This document shows, piece after piece, positions 22,709-59,235 of a stretch of DNA of 64,000 nt (the stretch's first letter is position 1; each line of letters begins with the position of its first letter). Under the pieces are notes generated by a model. It saw only the letters and a program-made list of their open reading frames with translations. It was not told the DNA's origin and did no database searches. Location of the stretch: positions 1 through 64,000 of the forward strand of contig JAIXMO010000072.1 of assembly GCA_025677825.1 (NCBI GenBank), read 5' to 3'. Made by a program: the position numbers and the translations under genes. Source of the DNA: Helicostylum pulchrum. Taxonomy: Eukaryota > Mucoromycota > Mucoromycetes > Mucorales > Mucoraceae.

Positions 22709-25700
22709 ATGCTCCAAGAATTAACCGATTTAGATTTTGACACATATTTCGATGTCGCTTCAAATCAACAGCAACAAAACCGTGATATATTATATCATGA
22801 TGACTCACAACAACAACAACAACAACAAAATAACAGTAGTAACTCACTAAGTTCATTATTAAACAGCAACAATAGACAAGCATACCAATATACATCACAG
22901 CAACAAAATTTCAATCTCTTTGAGTGGGATTTAAACCCTCCATCACATCAACAATCCTCTCCAATGCAAATATCTCCTCTAAGTTCTCCTCAATCATCCT
23001 CCGATGGTTATACATCTCATACATTATCTCCACAAATAATCAATAGTCCACCTTTATACACTGCATATAAAAATCAACACATTAAAGAGGAAGCAAATAA
23101 AGCATTAGAAAGTTTCTTTGCTAAACGATCAATATATTCTTCATTGAATCATTTACATAATGTACCTGGTATTAACATACCAACAACCCCAATTAACGAA
23201 CATCCCCCTATCACAGCAGCAAATTTACCTTCTCCTCCACTTGATAACCCATTATCTGGTGCATTCTCTGCCATTGATCAATGGTGTCAATTAAAGGGTA
23301 AGCCAAAAAAAAAAATAGTTATAAAAAAAAATTAACATCAAAAACTTTTTTATAGAGCAAGATGTTGTTATTCATCCACTTGATATCAAATGTGAAGAAC
23401 ATGAAACTAGACATTGGAGAAAAACATCAACTAGACACCAACAATTACAGCAACCTCAATCAAACATTTTAGATCGTCCTGAGCCCGGAAAGCAATTAAA
23501 AAAAGTAGCCCATAACGCTATTGAAAGACGTTACCGTAACAACATTAATGATCGTATTCGCGAATTAAAGAACGTTGTGCCAGCCCTTTACAAGGCTCGT
23601 ATTAGAGAAAAGGGAGAAGCTGATGATGATTCCAGTGCTGGTGACTCTGGTGATGAACAAGAAGAAGCAGTAATTGTCGAAGGTGTTGAAGTAGCCAAGA
23701 AATTAAATAAGGCCACCATCTTGAGAAAGGCAACTGAATACATTCAATTCTTAAAAAACAGCAATGATACAACTGAACAAGAAAACCAAATCCTTCAACA
23801 AATTATTGCTCAAATGCCTGGTGGTAATGATGTCTTGACTCGTTTTCTCTGTCAAAAAAGAGACTTTGAAAAATCTGAGCAAGATAGATTAACTCAAGAA
23901 CGTCGTGACGCACAAGAACGTGAAAGAACTGAAAGACAACGTATTCTTCGTGAAAGAGCTGCTCAAAGAGCTGCTTTAGCTCAGTTATTACCAAAGCCTG
24001 AAAGAAGACCTTATCGTCGTAGGCAATCTTCTAAAAACAATGCCAAGCCAACAAAGAAAACCTCTGTATCATCTGACGATGGCAACAACAAGATGTTTAT
24101 GGCCGCTTTTATGTGTATCGCCTTCTTTTCTGCTTCTCCCACCACAACTACCCTTGGGAACAATTTACCCCATTCATTTGGTTCTCATGATAATCAAACA
24201 ACTAATACACGCTCATTCAATCATCCAATTTCTGCCCCTTCCATTGACTTATGGTACGTTAAATATTTAACTTTACATATAACTTAATTTTTACTAATTT
24301 TATTTTATTTATCTTTAGGCATATTTTTCGTTATACCCTTTATACAGTCGGCATCTTATATATTTGTTTCATCCCACTCCTCCTTCGTTGGCTTCGTCCT
24401 CGCGCTGTCAATAGACCCAACAAATGTGTTGATCATCACCACTATGCTAATGAAGTTCCTACAGCTTGGAGTCGCCTCTACACCAATCTTATTTCTATCG
24501 TTAACAAATCTACTAGTACAGTTAAATCAAACAACAATACTAGCTCTATCTCCATCTTATCTACCATCTATGATATTATCCGTTACACTCTTTCTCTTTT
24601 CATTCCTAGCTTCTTATTGGCTTTCTTTCACAAGAATGCTAAACCTGTTGGCTGCCCCGAAGAACTTTCTTATATCGGCGCATGGATCCGTCTTAATGAA
24701 GTAGAATGTTTAGGAGGTAAAAATAAAAAAAAATCATAAAATAATAAAAAAACATCTTTTTTTTTCTGCCTACTTTTTCATTTTTAACATATTGAATTTG
24801 TTGTAACTAAAAATATTATTATTATCATTGGTACACTTTAGGTAATCCTGATATTACTCGTCTTGGTATGTTACACTCTTGTGTTGGCATGTTGGCTCAA
24901 TTAAAAAAGATGAAACGTGATGAAAAGCATATTATGTACTGCGAAGAAAACACCATGGCTCGAGTTTATGCAACTACTGCTATTCAACTTGAGCTTTGTT
25001 TACCCGCTTCTCTGTCATCTGTTATTGTTCCTTATTGTTGGAAACGCGTTATTAATGCCATGGACAAATCTACTGAAGAAAAGAAACACGACCAACAATT
25101 AATGTCTAATCAATGGCTCAGTTCTAATTGTCATAACCAGGTGTTACAGATTCTTTCTATTCGAAACGGATTTACAAACAACGACGACGGAAGTTGTTGT
25201 CGAAATGTTTTTTACTCATTTGTGCTTCCTTATGTTACATCTCCGTTGGATTTGGTACTTTATTGGCATCAATTAAGCAACTTGCAAGACTGTTGGTACT
25301 CGTATTTAAATGGTACGAGACCTGTTTTTAGCCAAAAACAATTAAATCATGTGCTCTCTGTTTCTGCTACCACTACAGCTCCCGGTCATATGTTACAGTG
25401 GTGGGTTCGTGTTGGTTTAACTCTTCAATCGCTTAGCAACAATACCGGTACTGAACACGAAGATAATTTAGATGCTCTTGCCGAATATACTCGTACTAAA
25501 GTGCCTCAAGTCAACAACCACCCTTCTTCTAACCTGTTACGTCGTCATCAAACCATGATATATCACATGTTAGAAGCCGCTACCGCTTTGCAAACCAACG
25601 TTAACTCGGACCAAGTTCCATATTATCTTAAAAAAGCCGCTAAAGATAGAGCCGCTTCAATTGAATGTATCCAACAAATTGCATCATCTACTCAAAACTA

Positions 25701-25977: not shown

Positions 25978-26539
25978 AAATACTATTATTACCCTCATTT
26001 TTTTTTTATAATAACATATATACCTAACCCCCATTACATTTATTATCCCTCATACTATTTTTTTATCAAGTATCTGTTTTGTAACATATTCTTTTACCCC
26101 TTATAATACGTTTCCTTCCTTTTTTTTTTAACTATATATAGTTATTACACACAATCTCATTCTTGACAAAAAAAAATATCTAAAAAAGTAAAGCTTTTAA
26201 ATCATACGATTTTTTTTTTTCAAGCTACTTCTTTTTTTGGGCACTTCGATTAGATTTATTCCCCCGCACACTATTTTCCTATACGAACAATAAAAAGTTT
26301 TTTTCAAAAATAGATAAATAAAAAAGTAATGTTACATTTAACTTTTTTTAGAACCCTGCGATGGTAAATCGAGGTACTTTTAAGCGAATTTTAATGTGAG
26401 GTTTTTTTTAGGGTAAATACGGGTCTTATTTGTAGGAAGGAATAAATCCAAATACTAGATAAATTGAAAGTCACAAGATTAGAAATTTGATTGGGTCTTG
26501 ACGTTACCTAATTATTCCTTAGTTGCATTGCAACTGGCT
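25978..26539. other. Intergenic region, 3' side of SREBP
   Basis: About 560 bases, T-rich with several T8-T10 runs and possible poly-A signals (AATAAA at 26289). No coding potential seen. Confidence 0.55.
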
Positions 26540-29500
26540 GTTCTTCTCTTCTTCACAGAAGGAAGATGCGATTGTTTTGAATTTCTCAGTATCAAATTGA
26601 CTGATTTTGGTAGGAGAAAAACAAAGAATTGGAGCACCAAGTATAACGGAGGAAAGCCCCGATAAACCTATGGCCAAAGATGACAGGGCATCTCGGGACT
26701 TTGTAGCCCTTCCGTTTCACAGAGACGCATCCGGGGTTGATACACATCAAACTGCCTTTAGTATATCTTCTTGTTATCTTGCCATCTTTTTTTTCAATAA
26801 GTAATAGGTGCTCCAAATGTTGGAAACAATAGACACAAGTCTGCGATTTCATGTGTTCGTTGGTGATACAGACATTCCCTCTATTTCCACGCATTATTTC
26901 CAGCCACTTTCCAACTCCTGTTCCTCTGTCTCCAACAAATTGTACAACCTTTTTCCAATCTATTAGACCATCAAAATTAGTTGATTTTCCAAAAAAATAT
27001 AATTATGCCAAGTTATATTGTATTATGTTACCTCCTCCTGATACTATCTTTCTCCTTTCACTGTCAACCAGTTTATCCAGAAACCTACTTTTTTTAATCT
27101 CGTTTGCTCTCAACAAGCTTGCTCTTTTTTTAGAAGAATAAAACTTTTGCAACCGATCAGATTTGCTAGCATGCAAGTTAAAGGCATTTTGATATTGTGA
27201 CAAGGCGGTGTTGTTTACCGTCACGGGTGACTTTGACAATACATCTTCTACCTTAGACACTTCTTTTCCTTCTTCGGTATGCTTTTTCGCTCTCTCTAGT
27301 TTCTTCCTGGCCTTACGGTGGGAGCAACCAACATCAATATCTGCAGAATTAATTACCTGGTTTTGTTGAGGTAAGTCCAGATAATTTATGTGGTCTTGAA
27401 TATCGATGTCTAGTTCTTCCAAGACTTGGTAACGGTTATATAGTTCCGAATGAAACTTGAATCTATCTAATGTAAACTGTGTCGTAGTCGACATGTTTAT
27501 AATTCCATTGTTGGTACCGGAAAAGGAAAAAGATTTATCAACCTCTGACAAACGACATTCTTCCGCCTTATACACACCGCGTGTCTCGCCCGTAAGTATA
27601 CAAACTGATTCTTCTTCTTTGGCAGACCCAGCAGACTTTTCCTCTAGTTTCTTATCAAGCTAGCTTTTATAACGAATGACATTCCTTTTGTAGTAAAGTT
27701 CTTCATTCAATGTAGCTTTACTAGATTGACATACTTGAATAGCTTGATACGCCTCTTGTCTTTTTTTCTTGGTATTTTTGAGTCTGGTTATCAGATCATT
27801 ATTGCTATTGTCATCCTTCAATTTAGCCTTGCCTGTCTTTATATCTACAGTCAGCTGCATCACCAGAACAGACTTATACAAGTTGCATAACTCTTCCTTC
27901 AAGTTGTTGTTTTTATTCTGAAGAGTATCAACCGCTTGTTTCAAATCAGGAAGATCCTTTTTATTTTCTTCTATGACTACATTATTATTCAAAATACGAG
28001 ATATATAACTAGTAGGTTCTTTTTCAGCAGTAGCACCGACTTTTTGACTGGTTTGGAGCCCAATACTTTATAGACTTTCATACCTGGTAATATCTTGATG
28101 ATTTGAGAAAAGGTAAGCTTGTATGACTCACAATTTTTCTTGATTTGTACCATATCGATACTGAACAAAACACAGTATCCTTATTTGATCGCGCGTATTC
28201 GATAGAATCAATCTTTTTTATTAAAATCGGCAATACTAAGAGCATTAGGCTCTGATGTTAACAACTGATATAATGATGGGGTATTGATTTCCAGTGCTTG
28301 AAGCTTTATTGGTTGTGGTGTAGGGAAAAGTGAGCGGGTAAATTTTGTATAGCCTGTGTTATGTAATATACCGTTTGCTAGTAAACAGGAAGGTAGCTGA
28401 TAACCGATTACAAAACGTTTTTTCTTATCAGGTATATACGGCTTCAACGTTTAAATCAACAGGTTTACAGTTGTCACCTCCTTTTCGGTTGCATCCGGGA
28501 TCTCCTTTTGTACATCTTCTACAGTAGTAGGCTCTTCAGGAGAGAATAAGAGATGCTTAGTCACTGACTTTAGACACTTTATACGTGAGCGAAAATATTC
28601 ATTGTCAGGCTTATTTACGTCGGAGAGATCCTACAAAGCATGCTTGTTAATTATTTTTTGGTTAAGTGAGTAGAAGCTATATCTTACCAACTAAATACCT
28701 GCTTCCTTATCTGTAACTGTACTGGTGGGAGGCTACAAGATATGATTATTAACACAATATATATAATTTAAAAAAAAAAAATTTCATCTTACCGAAATGT
28801 TCTTATGCGTCTTGAGACTTCTGAAAAAGTCAATCCTCTGTTCATTTTTGCTGATTTGACTTTTGTATCTTTCCTGCTTTTCTTTTTCATTTTCATTTTC
28901 CATCTGCAACTTCTGCTACCACTTTCTTTTTTTTTTTTTTGTACTCTCTACTGATCAAACTTCTACGGCGATCAGAGCTGACCGCTGATGTATCAATCTT
29001 AGTCTCGTTCTTTTTTTCCCCAGAAATATATGAATTGCAGCTATTAGTTCTATTTCCAGCCAGGTGCAGTTTTAGCAATACGTTAAGCAAGAGATCAAAG
29101 AGCTTTGAAAAGGTCTTGGTGTCGCTCCACGTATTCTTGACATTCGTGACGATTTGATTCAGAATACTGGCTTTTTCTTCTTGTCTCAGTACTGTACTGT
29201 AAGAATGTTTTGTAATTCCACTCAAAGCTAATTGGTCAAACAAGAAAAATTTCCAAAGGATGCCTTTCCAGGTTTTTTTGTTGGGCACCTGAGCCAAATA
29301 AATGAGAGTTGATCAGAGACAAGTGTTGATCAGTGAACAAAACTTCTAGCTCTCTTTGATACTCGCCCGGAATATTATGGGGGAGTGGTAATGATGAGAA
29401 TACAGGTTTTATATCATTCTTTCGGATAATTCATCAGGAAGCAATTGCAATACATTGTACCCGCGAGATGTTTCAAGACTTAAATCACCATTGTTATCAA

Positions 29501-30000
29501 CAAAAGTCAAGGTCATCAAGACTATAGCCATATAATTTACCATGAATAAAAAGTGGGCGTGATGATCACTTGCATTCTTAAGAGATGCTTCCAATTTAGT
29601 TTTGACTACGTTCTCTATTTCCTCAGGAAAATCTTTTCGCAAACCTTTCTTTGTTGAAATAAAAATTGTCCTGTACTGTTCTTCAACATGAGCAGTACCT
29701 GGGCCTGGTTGAACTGAAGAGGAAGGGGGTTCTTCTTTCCTGAATGAAATATTTCTTTCTTTGAGCTCTCTGGCAATCGAGTCGAAGTACTCATTGACAT
29801 AATCTTTCCACAAATTTATAGGTAGTTTTGTAGCATTGTTTTCTACAAAATTTCTCATTACGGGAAGCCCCAAACCAGCAAAAATCGCAGCGTTTGACAT
29901 TATTCCGTTTGGAAGCCTTGCTTTACTTGATAAGTCTTCCTTCGCTTTCAATAAATCAGCTTTAAGATTCTTGCTGTTTTTATCTTACTTAAGATCGCAG
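26540..30000 (-). pseudogene. Long decayed Fanzor-like (TnpB superfamily) nuclease gene, copy A
   Basis: Minus-strand fragments in order. N-terminal part 29951-29405 ('GIMSNAAIFAGLGLPVMRN', 'HHAHFLFMVNYMAIVLMTL'), then a frame change into 'VFSSLPLPHNIPGEYQRELE'. Next 29297-28893, and 28447-28208 ('IKLQALEINTPSLYQLL'). A spacer 'LTFSQIIKILPGMKVYKVLG' lies near 28120. A coiled coil occupies 27992-27590. The nuclease core: RuvC-I-like 'FSFSGTNNGIINMSTTTQFT' (about 27520), RuvC-II-like 'VVQFVGDRGTGVGKW' (about 26940), a zinc ribbon with 'TCVYC' and 'MCINPGC' (26850-26740), and in a shifted frame RuvC-III-like 'SRDALSSLAIGLSGLSSVIL'. Frameshifts and stops make it non-functional; the expected RuvC-I Asp is Asn. 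The same motif order is seen at 57-58.6 kb. Confidence 0.75.
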
Positions 30001-31143
30001 TAGTTAGATATAAAATTTCGCATTGAATTGTCAAAGCACGTAAGATAAGCAGGATCATTGTTATGCTGATGTTTGGTTCTTTTTGCAAAGTCTTATTGTG
30101 ATGATTCTCCAGCACTGAGCCTTCGCTTATTTGATAGTATCGGTACTAGTGTCTGCTTATCTTCAGCAAACATACTCGTTTGCCTTTTCTTCTTTGAATT
30201 ACGCATTCTACACTTATAGAGTTAAGTTTATTGAGCGTACAAATGTACATCTCTGTATAAAATCTTACCTTTACCAAAAACTATAAGTGGTCAAGTGAAT
30301 GTATAAAATAAGAGGAAATAGATAATTTTTAAAAAATAATATTGATGAAAAATATATTTAACATACAGCACTAAAGCAAAGCTGATCGATTATTATATAT
30401 ATAAACTTTTTTTTTTTAAAAATGACCGAGCAATTGACGATATATTAAAAACTGACTTGTATCAATCTTTAACAGGAGGAGTCGAAAAATAGTTTCAAAG
30501 GCATTGTAAATTGTATATGTATGTTTTTATTACAAGAGGACTTCTAGTTGATATTATGCTTTATGAATAAAGTATATAGAACGTCAACGCAGTGATATTT
30601 TTTTGTACGTATATTTATCAAAAAATGATATGTTGACTATGCCCACGGAAATATTTCCTTACTTTTCATCGAAAAAAAAACATTGGTTATGTGCACAATA
30701 AAAGGGTCTCTCAATGGTCTAATAGAAAAACCAAAAACGTCTTAGCTATATTACTTAGTTTAAACAAACTGATGTTGTTCCTTTTTTTTTTCCTCTGCGT
30801 ATGTTACATGATAAAAAACATCTTCCAAATACAGGCACCACTCCGAAATTCACGATTCGTTACTAAAAAAAATTAACTAATTTTTTGCCAAGCCTTTTTA
30901 CAAGTACGAAACAATTCATGTAAAGCTTAAATGTTTTTATTGTGCATAGTCATACTTTTTTACACACTATATTACGTTCTTAAACTATCATATATATTAT
31001 AAAGACTTACCTATTATTTTCAAATAAACTCGCACGGAAGGCTAGGATTTCTAAAATTAGTTGCTTATATTTATTAAAAAAAAAAGCCTACGTTTGTCTT
31101 GCTGGACGAGCAAGCGAATCTCTCAATGATTGAAGTTGGTTAT
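30001..31143. other. Intergenic region, no gene recognised
   Basis: About 1.1 kb of AT-rich sequence between the nuclease relic and the SWIM fragment. The first 250 bases may still be relic N-terminus (minus strand, 'S-x-x-R-x-T-S-M-F-A-E-D-K' near 30190-30150). Nothing else could be supported. Confidence 0.5.
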
Positions 31144-31745
31144 CTATATCCGCAACAAGGACTTAATCCTGGTTGGTATTTCTACTGGTAACTCTCTGGA
31201 CACTTTTTTGAGCAAAACACAGTATTCTTCCACGTTTTCGGCATAAGCTGAAATATAACTAGATTTATCGTCAATACCGTTGTTGACGATAGGTGCCTGG
31301 GCAATGCTTACTATCTTCCGAACGGAGAAGGGGATCGCCATAATTCTCGAAACAAGGAACATATGCTTGCAAATACCGATGGAATCAGGGCATGAGCAGG
31401 AGCGAACATGGTTATTTTCAACCGAGATTTGATAAATGTTATCACGAGTGGCGTTAGGATCGTGATTTTCGTGTTTCCAAAAGTACTTAAAAAAACAGAG
31501 CCAATAATTCTCTTTACAATACTTAATTTTGCAGGACAACCAACTTTGATAGAAGGCTTAACCTGTCTTTTTTTTTCTTCTTCAGACGTATTGTATATTT
31601 TTTTAGGCTTGCTAGAATGATCACAAGAATAATATGAAACGACTTCTTTGTCTGTATTTTTTTCTGTCTTCGTGCAGACCCAGACAGCATGCTTAGAGCT
31701 ATTGTTTTCTAACCATTCTTTAAAAACATTTTCATTTTCAAACAA
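31144..31745 (-). pseudogene. SWIM zinc-finger fragment, Mutator-like (MULE) transposase relic or domesticated piece
   Basis: Two overlapping minus-strand frames. The first (31745 onward) reads 'FKEWLENNSSKHAVWVCTKT', then 'SIKVGCPAKLSIVK'. The second (31539-31144) reads 'KYFWKHENHDPN', 'YQISVENNHVRSCSCPDSIG' and 'ICKHMFLVSRI'. The C-S-C-x(6)-C-K-H pattern is a SWIM zinc finger, and an N-terminal zinc DNA-binding module with H-x-N-H-D-P is common in MULE-type transposases. The DDE catalytic domain that normally separates them is absent, and a frame change lies near 31530. It could be a deleted transposase or a small host protein broken by one frameshift. Confidence 0.6.
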
Positions 31746-32874
31746 TTGAATCTAAGGATGTTCGTTATAAGTGGATACTTCGCGAACGAGTGGCATATGT
31801 ATTTTTTGTAAATGAAGGTTGGTGTGCCCCAGGTGCCAGGTATTTTGTGACAGGGAAAAAGTATAAGATATAGTGTCATAGTGTATGGAAAGGGGCGGGA
31901 AATTAACTCTAATGCGCGGTTATTTTTTCTATGAACTTACTTTGGCCCTACTACCGAAAACTTTGTTTTACCATATACGTTCTCCATACAGAAAGCGAGA
32001 CAAATGTTTGTATAAATAAATTAAAACTAAACATATCTAATAAGAGTTCTAATTTGTGTTTATAGCCAGTATGAGAAGTTTTTTAGTAGTTCCCTCTCCC
32101 CTTTTCTCTTTAAAGAAAAGAAAACAGAGGTAGAGTTTCCCCACTCAAAAAAAAAAAAAAAAAAATCACAACTGATTGGTTTAGAGTGTCAGGGAAAGCC
32201 ATGATCGCTGTCAGGTGCGAAAGAAAACTGCAGCTGCAGCCTTAGCCAAAAGAAGAGTGAGTAGCACAACAAGCTATTACAATACCCGCCACCAAACTGA
32301 ATGTCGAGTTTCAAAATATCGTCTTGAGCAATATTAGGCAATGTCGACCAGTCGAATTGCAGAGAAAACAGCAATGTGTATTACAAATGTTGTAGAGATT
32401 AGAAGACATGAGGTGAAAGAAGGTTAATTGGCACTGTTAAAAAAAATTAATCGGGTACCACCATGCCACGTTTGAATCTCCGAATAGAGACCTCGTTAAT
32501 GGTAACATATAGTAGCAAATACAGCCGTATTTTGCGTTCTGCAGATAACCAAGACCTACAAATGTAATCCTAATCATAATCTCTAACGCGTTATTTATTC
32601 TATTGTGTTTAAAGTTGGGGCACAATCAATAGCGTTTAAAAAAGTTGGGACAAGTTGCAATAAAAAAGTAATTCACTTTTTACTAACTTTGAAACTCTAA
32701 TAAATAATGTTATTGCTTGGTGTAAGTACTGATAATAGATAGCCCTGTTAAATAACTACTCATAAAATAAACGGACAAGTATAAAAAGTCGTAGAAAATG
32801 TAACCAAACATAAAATAGTTTTTTATTATTATTAAAGAGTCTAAATTTTTATTACTCCACGAAATGTTAACCAG
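31746..32874. other. Intergenic region, no gene recognised
   Basis: About 1.1 kb. It holds an A22 run near 32144-32165, and two minus-strand ORFs of about 60 codons (32189-32374, 32437-32625) with no motif. Some GC-richer sequence at 32190-32350 stands out from the surroundings and could be an old coding remnant. Confidence 0.5.
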
Positions 32875-56979: not shown

Positions 56980-57009
56980 TTAGCATGACCGTTGGGGACG
57001 CTCTTACAG

Positions 57010-58596
57010 AAGCTCAAAAAAGTATGCGGCGGTTAAAAGATGACATTTGCACATAGTATGAGATTACTTCCGGGTTTGAGAATAGTGCGAGTATCTGGCT
57101 ACAAGCTCAACACTCAGGATGAAGAACGTGAACAGAAAAAGCCAAGTAAAACACGGGTTGCAAAAAAAGATAATAAAAAGGCAGACATAACTGAATATAA
57201 ACAGAAACTTAATGATCTGGTTGTTAAAGTGCGGGAATTGTCCAAAGAAAGAAGAGACCTTTATCAGAAGTCTCATAAGAAAAATCAAATGAGGATGGAT
57301 AAAGACAGCTGTGACAGAAGAAGACAAAGAAAATAACCAAGTAATCTACCACAAGGTGAACTACTGAAAGCTGAACAGTCTAAAACTGAACTAAAGTTAA
57401 TCCAAGCCAAAGAGGATCTTCAACAAGCAAAGAGGCAACTGCAGTTACTCAGGAGCACCAACATTGAAACGGAAGACCCTGTCAGCAAAAAGCGTATTAT
57501 TGAATACCGAATATGTTGGTATTGATAAGGCTGAAAATTTCACACTTGATAAAGGGTTTTTTAATTCTGGGGACGTTATGTTTTCCGGAACAGATAACGG
57601 TCTGGTCTCCATGACAGAAACTGTCAATTCTACACCCGAAAGGTTCAGATTCCATTTGAGACTGTATAATCTTTTTTCTGTTCTGGCTGAAGGTAAGATT
57701 GAGGTTTCTGTATTTGATATATTATGTGAATCTAATCCATTAAAACAGATGAACAACCTCAACATGTGTCCCTTTCGGAAGAAAAGAAGAAATTAGTAAT
57801 GTTACCTACATCTTTCAAAATATCTGGAAAGGAAATCCAGTTTGGCTCTGGCACTATAAAACGGAGAAAACAGTTGGAAAAAAGCAAGAACTTGCCAGGT
57901 GAACGTATAAATCATATTGAGAAGAATATGGGGGATAACAGTCTGCATGATGCCAGGTCATTAGATGATATAGAGGCACGCTATAGCAACGCCATTCAAG
58001 ACCAAGAGTACTTTCGTAAATTTTACTACACACCACGAAAGTGTAAACAAAAATATGCACAGGAGCTGGCGAAGCTTTGTTCATCGGGACGAAAATTTAT
58101 CAAAAGCCAGCAAGAAATCATGCCTATTTTTTTTTATTGGTGATCAAGGTCTGGGGATTGGGTCCCGAATTAAAGGAGATGTGAAGTACGGTGGAATGTG
58201 GAAATCAGTTTCTCATAGTAGATACAATCCGGTGGCAATTACCAATGAGTATAATACCTCGCAAAATTGAATTTTCTGTTTTAAAAAGCTACTACATCCT
58301 CTTGCTCCAGAAAAACCAACCCCTCTGCAATTACTAGTATTAGAGGAGCGTTCAATTGTGTGAATCCCTTCTGTCCTTCTGTAACTGTTGGCAAGTCTCA
58401 TCACGAACGCGACTGTGTAATTGCCGCATCAATTGCGTTCTCTGGCCTATCCACTGTTCTTTTTGGTGTAGCCCCACAAAAATTTAAAGAAAAAATCCAT
58501 TCCTGTAATACTGATACCTCATTCGTTATCACTGCTACTGACTTTCTGAAAGTGAAACGCAGTTCAAGCAAGTTCGTTATGCGAGACATTACTTGA
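57010..58596 (+). pseudogene. Decayed Fanzor-like (TnpB superfamily) nuclease gene, copy B, 5'-truncated
   Basis: Plus-strand pieces: 'MTFAHSMRLLPGLRIVRVSG' (57037-57100), a long coiled coil with a stop at 57334, a frame change near 57470, RuvC-I-like 'VMFSGTDNGLVSMTETVNST' (57577-57630), an intron with normal GT...AG (57696-57750), 'FKISGKEIQFGSGTIKRRKQ', then after a slip at a T10 run (58123-58132) RuvC-II-like 'FFIGDQGLGIGSRIKGDVKY'. Next comes a decayed first zinc-ribbon pair with a stop ('NTSQN', stop, 'IFCFKKLLHP'), a second pair 'CVNPFCPSV', and RuvC-III-like 'HERDCVIAASIAFSGLSTVL'. Motif order is the same as copy A at 26.5-30 kb. Copy B keeps the RuvC-I Asp that copy A has lost. The N-terminal half seen in copy A is missing. 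Confidence 0.75.
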
Positions 58597-59235
58597 GGTT
58601 TACCCTCACAGTAAAATGCTACAACATACTTACTTTTTTTTTTTGTGGTTAGAGCGAGTATGTTTGTACATATGAGGCTGATAAATCGTGTATGGTTTGA
58701 TTCAATATATCCCAATATTTACAATTTTATATAAAGCACCTTTTTCGTTAAAAAGAAAGATATCCATACTATCATTCCAAAATCATGCGAAGAAGAAATA
58801 AAAAAAACTAAATTATAGTAGCACAATCGCGTTAGTAACACTTTAAATCTGTATTAGTAGCTGAATAGGCAATAAGATAATACCCCTATATGGTTTATAG
58901 TAAACTTAATAACACGTGTACTTAATATGTATGTATGTTTGCTTTTGTAAGCTCGCCATTTATATTAACGTATAGAGTATATTAGATTAACCAACTGTCC
59001 GACTGGTTACTTTTTCAAAAGTTACGATTTTATCACAGATTAGTGAAATATACTGATATTACGGAGTAGTCGGTATGTATCTATCGAGTCTTTTTTTTTT
59101 TTTTTGGGAGATTTTTAATAAACTTTAAAGTTTAGCGAGATAAACATTTAAGTATGTAAAACTGCCTTTTTTTTATTGTACACTTTATTTAGAGCAACAT
59201 AATAAGAAAGGTCCTTATACAGCCGTTCCACTACT
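58597..59235. other. Intergenic region, no gene recognised
   Basis: About 640 bases of AT-rich sequence after the nuclease relic, with a T15 run near 59091-59105. Nothing coding was seen. Confidence 0.55.

Follow-up and report, generated by a model that had tools for sequence, protein, structure and literature searches.

The locus and its decayed gene

We analysed a stretch of 64,000 nucleotides from the Mucorales fungus Helicostylum pulchrum (assembly GCA_025677825.1, contig JAIXMO010000072.1, positions 1 to 64,000 of the forward strand; hereafter the window), whose minus strand carries what is probably a dead copy of a transposable element with the gene for a Fanzor-like protein of about 1,130 amino acids (aa). 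An initial annotation of the sequence had described a decayed Fanzor-like RuvC nuclease at 26540..30000, and the four peptide fragments on which it relied do lie on the minus strand in the order given, within open reading frames (ORFs) of the window: FSFSGTNNGII in ORF 27003-27659, VVQFVGDRGTGVG and TCVYC...MCINPGC both in ORF 26592-27002, and SRDALSSLAIGL in ORF 26519-26716. The limits proposed there proved somewhat short. According to tblastn with two better preserved relatives, the copy L013 and the Mucor hiemalis protein P0009, the pseudogene occupies 26519..30218 (-), which when set against P0009 amounts to about 1,130 codons and some short introns, with N-terminal homology beginning at 30218, and the surrounding element reaches about 31880.

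The pseudogene opens with an N-terminal region (28941..30218, -) showing 66% and 44% identity to L013 frames in tblastn, and later includes a coiled-coil region (27660..28067, -), an ORF whose counterpart in P0009, residues 680-794, was modelled as long helices with high predicted local distance difference test values (pLDDT). The comparison with P0009 and the AlphaFold2 model thus bore out the idea that the gene is a decayed representative of a large family whose proteins have a long N-terminal part and a coiled coil. The RuvC-I-like motif SGTNNGII follows at 27498..27521 (-), with the codon of the catalytic Asp (27512-27510) reading Asn. A putative GT...AG intron (26960..27031, -) was placed by eye, and the gene models of P0009 and P0001 do not have it. 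Next comes the strand block VVQFVGDRGTGVG (26913..26948, -), after which the alignment shows the window copy to be shortened relative to the family, the GSRIKGHRRYGG-like stretch that follows in relatives being missing. This block had been read as RuvC-II, an assignment that we correct: by the Fanzor rule it does not hold the catalytic acid, which is the E of TNEHMKSQTC (26856..26858, -; codon 26858-26856), the alternative RuvC-II glutamate, which precedes the first zinc Cys by six residues. The zinc ribbon CVYC ... CINPGC (26727..26837, -), with four Cys conserved in the family alignment, and the RuvC-III motif SRDAL (26684..26698, -; Asp codon 26692-26690), in a frame different from that of the zinc ribbon, complete the gene.

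Against the window copy, P0009 aligned by tblastn in four stretches, in frames -3, -1, -3 and -1 and with 4, 8, 2 and 3 stops, a number of which fall in introns. With its RuvC-I Asp changed to Asn, its frame shifts and its stops, this copy is dead and cannot act, and taken alone it is ordinary transposon debris.

The mobile element and its upstream gene

The whole element copy spans 26440..31880 (-), with its 5' end near 31880 (ATGACACTATATC...) and its 3' end near 26440 (...AGTATTTGGATTTATT), limits given by DNA homology to L014, L016, L017, L038, L039, L040 and L041; no target-site duplication or terminal inverted repeat was recognised by eye at these ends. Between the stop codon and the element end lies a non-coding 3' tail common to the copies (26440..26521, -), where the scaffold of a guide RNA would lie.

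Upstream of the nuclease gene and in the same orientation, open frames at 31144..31751 (-) preserve the remnant of a second gene with a SWIM-type CxC..CxH motif (CSCPDSIGICKH). 'SWIM-type' is the name that the database source gives to the protein P0002, and the remnant itself matched no Pfam domain above the cut-off. It matched its own genome 16 times, counting itself and partial pieces, and the SWIM gene is paired with the Fanzor-like gene in the window, L014, L015, L016, L038, L039 and L040, the nuclease piece of L040 belonging to a more distant subfamily. L018 gave no SWIM match, and L013 starts too near a contig end to tell. The database gene models P0001 and P0002 fuse the two genes into one. 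The SWIM domain is known from MULE transposases, and the remnant is the window element's only link to MuDR/MULE elements.

Copies, relatives and conservation

A 136-aa piece with the RuvC-II region and zinc ribbon yielded 84 matches at E≤0.001 in the 32-Mb H. pulchrum genome, self included. Some of these rows are fragments of a single copy, many of the more distant ones are only 30-45% identical to the window piece, and many carry stops. In a protein search, the 218-aa RuvC-I piece retrieved six proteins at E≤0.001, three from H. pulchrum (best 7e-75), one without a named organism (3e-43) and two from Rhizopus microsporus (6.6e-38 and 1.3e-4). These repeated genome and protein matches show that the quoted fragments are not chance sequence, and the recurrence of copies with shared ends associates the family with transposable elements. 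L013 (contig C85) retains open frames of 153, 387 and 722 aa, and P0009, an intact-looking relative of 1129 aa, has all motifs; its gene model is about 15 residues short compared with that of its sister P0010, which is garbled at its end. Further relatives come from Rhizopus microsporus, Helicostylum and Thamnidium, and from entries that name no organism. A search with an alignment as query, scored over the 7,995 candidates with the most words in common, found at least 19 proteins at E≤0.01, none with a listed Pfam domain.

The acids and cysteines are conserved across the family. The RuvC-I Asp is present in 25 of the 26 alignment rows that have a letter there, the window copy being the sole exception (24 of 25 if L015 is left out, in whose row fused SWIM sequence was probably aligned by chance). 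The alternative Glu is kept in 24 of 25 such rows, the four Cys of the zinc ribbon in 26/26, 23/24, 25/29 and 25/28, and the RuvC-III Asp in 20/24. Two close copies with long open frames, L030:4417-5361 and L033:4306-5277, have His in place of the Asp of RD, which L031 retains.

The ratio of nonsynonymous to synonymous change (dN/dS) was 0.15-0.29 in the RuvC-I block for L013 against the window copy, L014, L015 and L016, and 0.11 in the RuvC-II/III block for L013 against L014, with synonymous change near saturation. Among the closest copies (window, L014, L015 and L016) it was 0.39-0.58, and for pairs inside two other groups, L030/L031 excepted, 0.28-0.42; saturated dS left no ratio for 5 of 15 pairs in the first block and 5 of 12 in the second. 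The low ratios of L013 against the window copy, L014, L015 and L016 indicate that the family protein had a function and was under purifying selection.

Probable kinship with Fanzor nucleases

A signature of TnpB and Fanzor proteins published in 2013, D-X(125,275)-[TS][TS]XX-C4 zinc finger-X(5,50)-RD (PMC3627910), is fitted by P0009, with Asp833, 191 residues, TSQTC, four Cys (the last at 1065), 11 residues and RD at 1077-1078. What distinguishes Fanzors from most TnpBs is an alternative RuvC-II Glu placed exactly six residues ahead of the zinc ribbon's first Cys (PMC10711439), and this gap is six in both P0009 (Glu1022) and P0010.

Comparison of profiles pointed in the same direction. The family RuvC-II/III profile matched a classical Fanzor profile, a small one built from L043-L047 of the same genome, part of L013 and a segment of Guillardia Fanzor1, with an hhalign probability of 73.6, a P of 2.9e-5 and a score of 34.2. 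None of 200 shuffles reached this score, whether family columns (200 shuffles, maximum 23.2) or the Fanzor profile (200 shuffles, maximum 19.0) were shuffled, and the reversed family scored 13.8. The block from the Glu through the zinc ribbon to RuvC-III scored 31.8, where 200 shuffles gave no more than 17.5, and 20.6 against 15.1 when Cys was masked in both profiles (0 of 200 shuffles reaching it). For the RuvC-I block the aligned ranges, taken without a printed alignment, set its Asp opposite the Asp of DPG, and 3 of 200 shuffles scored as high. The likeness to classical Fanzor1 is carried by the Glu-zinc block.

Classical Fanzors are also present in this genome. The Pfam model PF07282 gave 26 matches at E≤0.01, 17 of them over the cut-off, and none of the 26 overlaps the 84 family matches when the two lists are compared by eye; one classical copy, L043, has DPG and NEYLTSQICPRC and matches PF07282 at 1e-10. 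Judged by these sequences, the window family is distinct from the classical Fanzors beside it. Relics of apparently other Fanzor types adjoin family copies in two places, at L013:4919-5128 (+), with PF07282 at E=0.00033, below the cut-off, and at L024:5072-5830 (+), with GMDPG by eye and no Pfam match above the cut-off. In viral contigs a degenerate motif scan found nothing, the family sequence itself not having been searched there, and with L043 as query seven stretches fitted the peptide pattern, none confirmed as a relative.

Other observations weigh against the kinship. DPG at RuvC-I is near exclusive in Fanzors (PMC10711439), but the family reads GTDNG, with N after the Asp position in 26/26 rows (25/25 without the doubtful L015) and never P. 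The ribbon of P0009, read from its sequence as CxxC-x27-CxxxxC-x12-D, is longer than and outside the spacing CxxC-x(12,18)-CxxC-x(4,8)-D used for Fanzors (PMC10711439). The third acid is His in L030 and L033 and Gly in L020, the Glu is Lys in L018, and L030/L031 gave a dN/dS of 1.58, on very few changes. PF07282 matched only 1/20 C-terminal family pieces, at E=1.1, and neither it nor NCBIfam TnpB matched P0009 or P0010 at E≤10; no NCBIfam TnpB model was found for 4/4 family proteins at E≤1, whereas classical L043 scores 8e-7. Other domains were matched weakly, namely the PyrI_C zinc domain in 6/20 members (best 0.0041) and ATPgrasp_YheCD in 3/20 (best 5.7e-4), and the strand block faintly resembles SRP54 (E=0.013, and 0.11 in another search); further weak Pfam and NCBIfam matches were to coiled-coil families, DUF2594 and others. 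Despite their likeness by eye, neither the strand (KGxR) block alone nor the C3C4-RuvC-III block alone rose above shuffles, of which 104/200 and 36/200, respectively, reached the real score.

Structure prediction on the intact relative, proposed with the initial annotation, was likewise weak. The AlphaFold2 model of P0009 (51-row alignment) had a mean pLDDT of 61.7 and a predicted template modelling score (pTM) of 0.34 and was confident mainly in helices; the RuvC part was mostly low, with strands at 827-832, 836-841, 983-986 and 1017-1020, around the motifs, at low confidence. The model of the 418-aa nuclease half of L013 (57 rows) reached a mean pLDDT of 59.2 and a pTM of 0.32, with no RuvC strands formed. 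Foldseek against the Protein Data Bank (PDB) gave no match at E≤0.001 for either. VIA-align of the listed structural neighbours covers mainly P0009 residues 680-794, the coiled coil, and contains no RuvC protein; only Foldseek's own ranks were compared there, so this is not evidence against the fold. Profile searches of the PDB with two family alignments (A1 and A4) found no Fanzor at E≤10 and single-sequence searches found none either, in a search that is weak for Fanzors generally, since classical L043 retrieved nothing at E≤0.01 and Guillardia Fanzor1 only at E=0.07.

The proposed kinship is therefore supported by motif order, by spacing and by the profile match around the Glu and zinc ribbon, and the RuvC fold is putative. 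PF07282 and the NCBIfam TnpB models missed the family, the classical Fanzor profile matched it around the Glu and zinc ribbon, and no searched library matched the protein end to end as something else. Because the signature, the Glu and the profile match have to be weighed against DNG, the ribbon, the missing model matches and the weak fold prediction, we call the family Fanzor-like and regard it as probably a divergent Fanzor relative.

Three other explanations were considered. An ordinary, already described Fanzor1 that is simply long, with the MCi-2 elements of Mucor circinelloides perhaps in the same family, is unlikely. It would suit the Fanzor elements of Mucorales, in which 5' regions vary and the 3' region is constant (PMC3627910), a layout similar to that of our L023/L024/L026/L027 group; it accords poorly with the size of Fz1 proteins, mostly 600-700 aa (PMC11423790) and up to about 800 (PMC10711439), against 1129 in P0009. 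That PDB profile searches, Guillardia Fanzor1 included, missed the family adds a weak point against it, given the poor E=0.07 obtained with L043. Length, GTDNG and ribbon appear to set the family apart from described Fanzors, MCi-2 being compared by description only.

Somewhat less likely still is that the C-terminal half belongs to an unrelated transposon protein with a zinc ribbon, its likeness to Fanzors being convergence around E-x-x-TS-x-x-CxxC. The strong significance of the Glu-zinc block alone would fit such convergence, as would the weak PyrI_C matches in 6/20 members against 1/20 for PF07282, but the profile match survives the masking of all Cys, the RuvC-I Asp, Glu and RD stand in Fanzor order and spacing, and most rows retain these three acids, in a family under purifying selection. 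Finally, a host gene or structural coiled-coil protein that is not a nuclease is highly improbable: the coiled coil is the most confident part of the model and the listed structural neighbours align there, but the copy number (dozens of dispersed matches, many with stops) and the internally deleted copies L022 and L032 disfavour this idea, as do the shared element ends.

Sister subfamilies and their CAGTA ends

The window holds a second decayed copy of the same family, more diverged and of another subfamily, at 57004..58593 (+) (tblastn; RuvC-I MFSGTDNGLVSM), with the right-end motif ACCCTCACAGTA at 58602..58613 (+), shortly past the stop codon. The pattern ACCCTC[A/T]CAGTA occurs 51 times in the genome against once for its reversal, and the longer TACCCTC[A/T]CAGTAT 32 times against none. 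Eighteen of the 51 sites lie 302-406 bp beyond a same-strand domain match, 10 lie within 5 kb on the 5' side of one and a single site is near an opposite-strand match. The other 22 are near no domain match and may mark related elements without a nuclease gene. The motif is absent from the main window copy in the whole-genome list, and the ends of the window subfamily differ.

With the 3' tail of L031 as query, all seven other full-length matches stopped exactly at the CAGTA end, as did four partial ones. With the left end of L026, 3 of 15 matches began inside the motif, of which two began at CAGTA itself. The remaining 12 begin ahead of the motif, since the upstream relic also occurs as a repeat. 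In L022 the left boundary CAGTACTCTGG adjoins an unrelated flank. These sister elements thus appear to have CAGTA, in a single orientation, as the boundary on either side, which would be expected for site-specific insertion rather than random duplication.

Upstream of the nuclease gene, L023, L024, L026 and L027 have a broken gene that looks like a Crypton-type recombinase, Pfam giving nothing above the cut-off. In three of these (L023, L024 and L026) the right-end motif also occurs at the left end of the nuclease element, so that it separates this relic from the nuclease gene.

Elsewhere in the window, an open frame at 23325-24287 (+) resembles by eye a helix-loop-helix leucine-zipper (SREBP-like) transcription factor.

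Proposed mode of action

Intact members of the family probably work like TnpB and Fanzor. A RuvC fold is proposed for the C-terminal half, which would cut DNA with the Asp of GTDNG, the alternative Glu before the zinc ribbon and the Asp of RD; the roles of the N-terminal region and the coiled coil are conjectural. Transcription at the 3' end of the element would yield an RNA that continues into flanking host DNA and guides the cut, and once the empty donor site had been cut the element would be copied back into it.

In members bounded by CAGTA, the empty site would read CAGTA and then the guide target. For the ACCCTC[A/T]CAGTA subfamilies, and for these only, we therefore predict a guide that begins immediately behind CAGTA, with CAGTA or just its last bases as the motif recognised next to the target. 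Both the start of the guide and the target motif are directly testable, thanks to the CAGTA that is constant at the right end of these sister subfamilies. Parasitella parasitica is likewise a mucoralean. The recognition motif of its Fanzor1, whose structure has been solved, is ATN (PMC11423790).

We would go further only tentatively. It is possible, if rather doubtful, that these proteins form a clade of their own among eukaryotic RNA-guided nucleases, the third and so far unrecognised, made up of giant Fanzors of the Mucorales with a DNG active site and a coiled-coil N-terminal half, carried by several unrelated transposons including a CAGTA-specific recombinase-type element, in which the target core CAGTA would double as the motif licensing cutting of the empty site. 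If the probable kinship and mode of action proposed above are right, Fanzor surveys that use OrfB/TNB and TnpB models would miss a high-copy clade, and the range of sizes and active sites among eukaryotic RNA-guided nucleases is wider than described.

Comparison with known systems

The suggestion that this is a little-described branch of Fanzor is plausible, as the relatives found have no functional name for this protein and are unseen by the PF07282 and NCBIfam TnpB models. The available text of the literature searched, including PMC3627910, PMC10711439, PMC11423790 and PMC10432273, held no description of a clade above 1,100 aa with GTDNG and this ribbon.

With Fanzor1 (SpuFz1, GtFz1 and PpFz1) the family has in common the order Asp, alternative Glu, zinc ribbon and RD, the Glu six residues ahead of the first zinc Cys, and its place as a gene of eukaryotic mobile elements. 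It differs in length (1129 aa in P0009 against the usual 600-700), with 832 residues before the RuvC-I Asp and a long coiled coil, and in having DNG for DPG, a CxxC-x27-CxxxxC ribbon and a sequence below detection by the PF07282 and TnpB models.

The MuDR-type Fanzor1 elements ROr-4, PBl-3 and MCi-4 (PMC3627910) also come from Mucorales, and the window subfamily has the SWIM gene as a possible link to such elements; unlike them, the window copy shows by eye neither terminal inverted repeats nor 9-bp duplications.

The nearest layout is that of MCi-2 of Mucor circinelloides, described in 2013, in which a 6-kb 3' region contains the Fanzor and is preceded by a partial Crypton gene (PMC3627910). 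As in MCi-2, the elements studied here combine a constant 3' region bearing the Fanzor-like gene with a varying 5' region, and in one subfamily a partial gene for a putative recombinase lies upstream. Where the text on MCi-2 reports duplications of 11-12 bp with the pattern ATAATTNNNN(N), the ACCCTC[A/T]CAGTA subfamilies appear to be bounded by a constant CAGTA, and the window subfamily has the SWIM gene in place of the recombinase gene.

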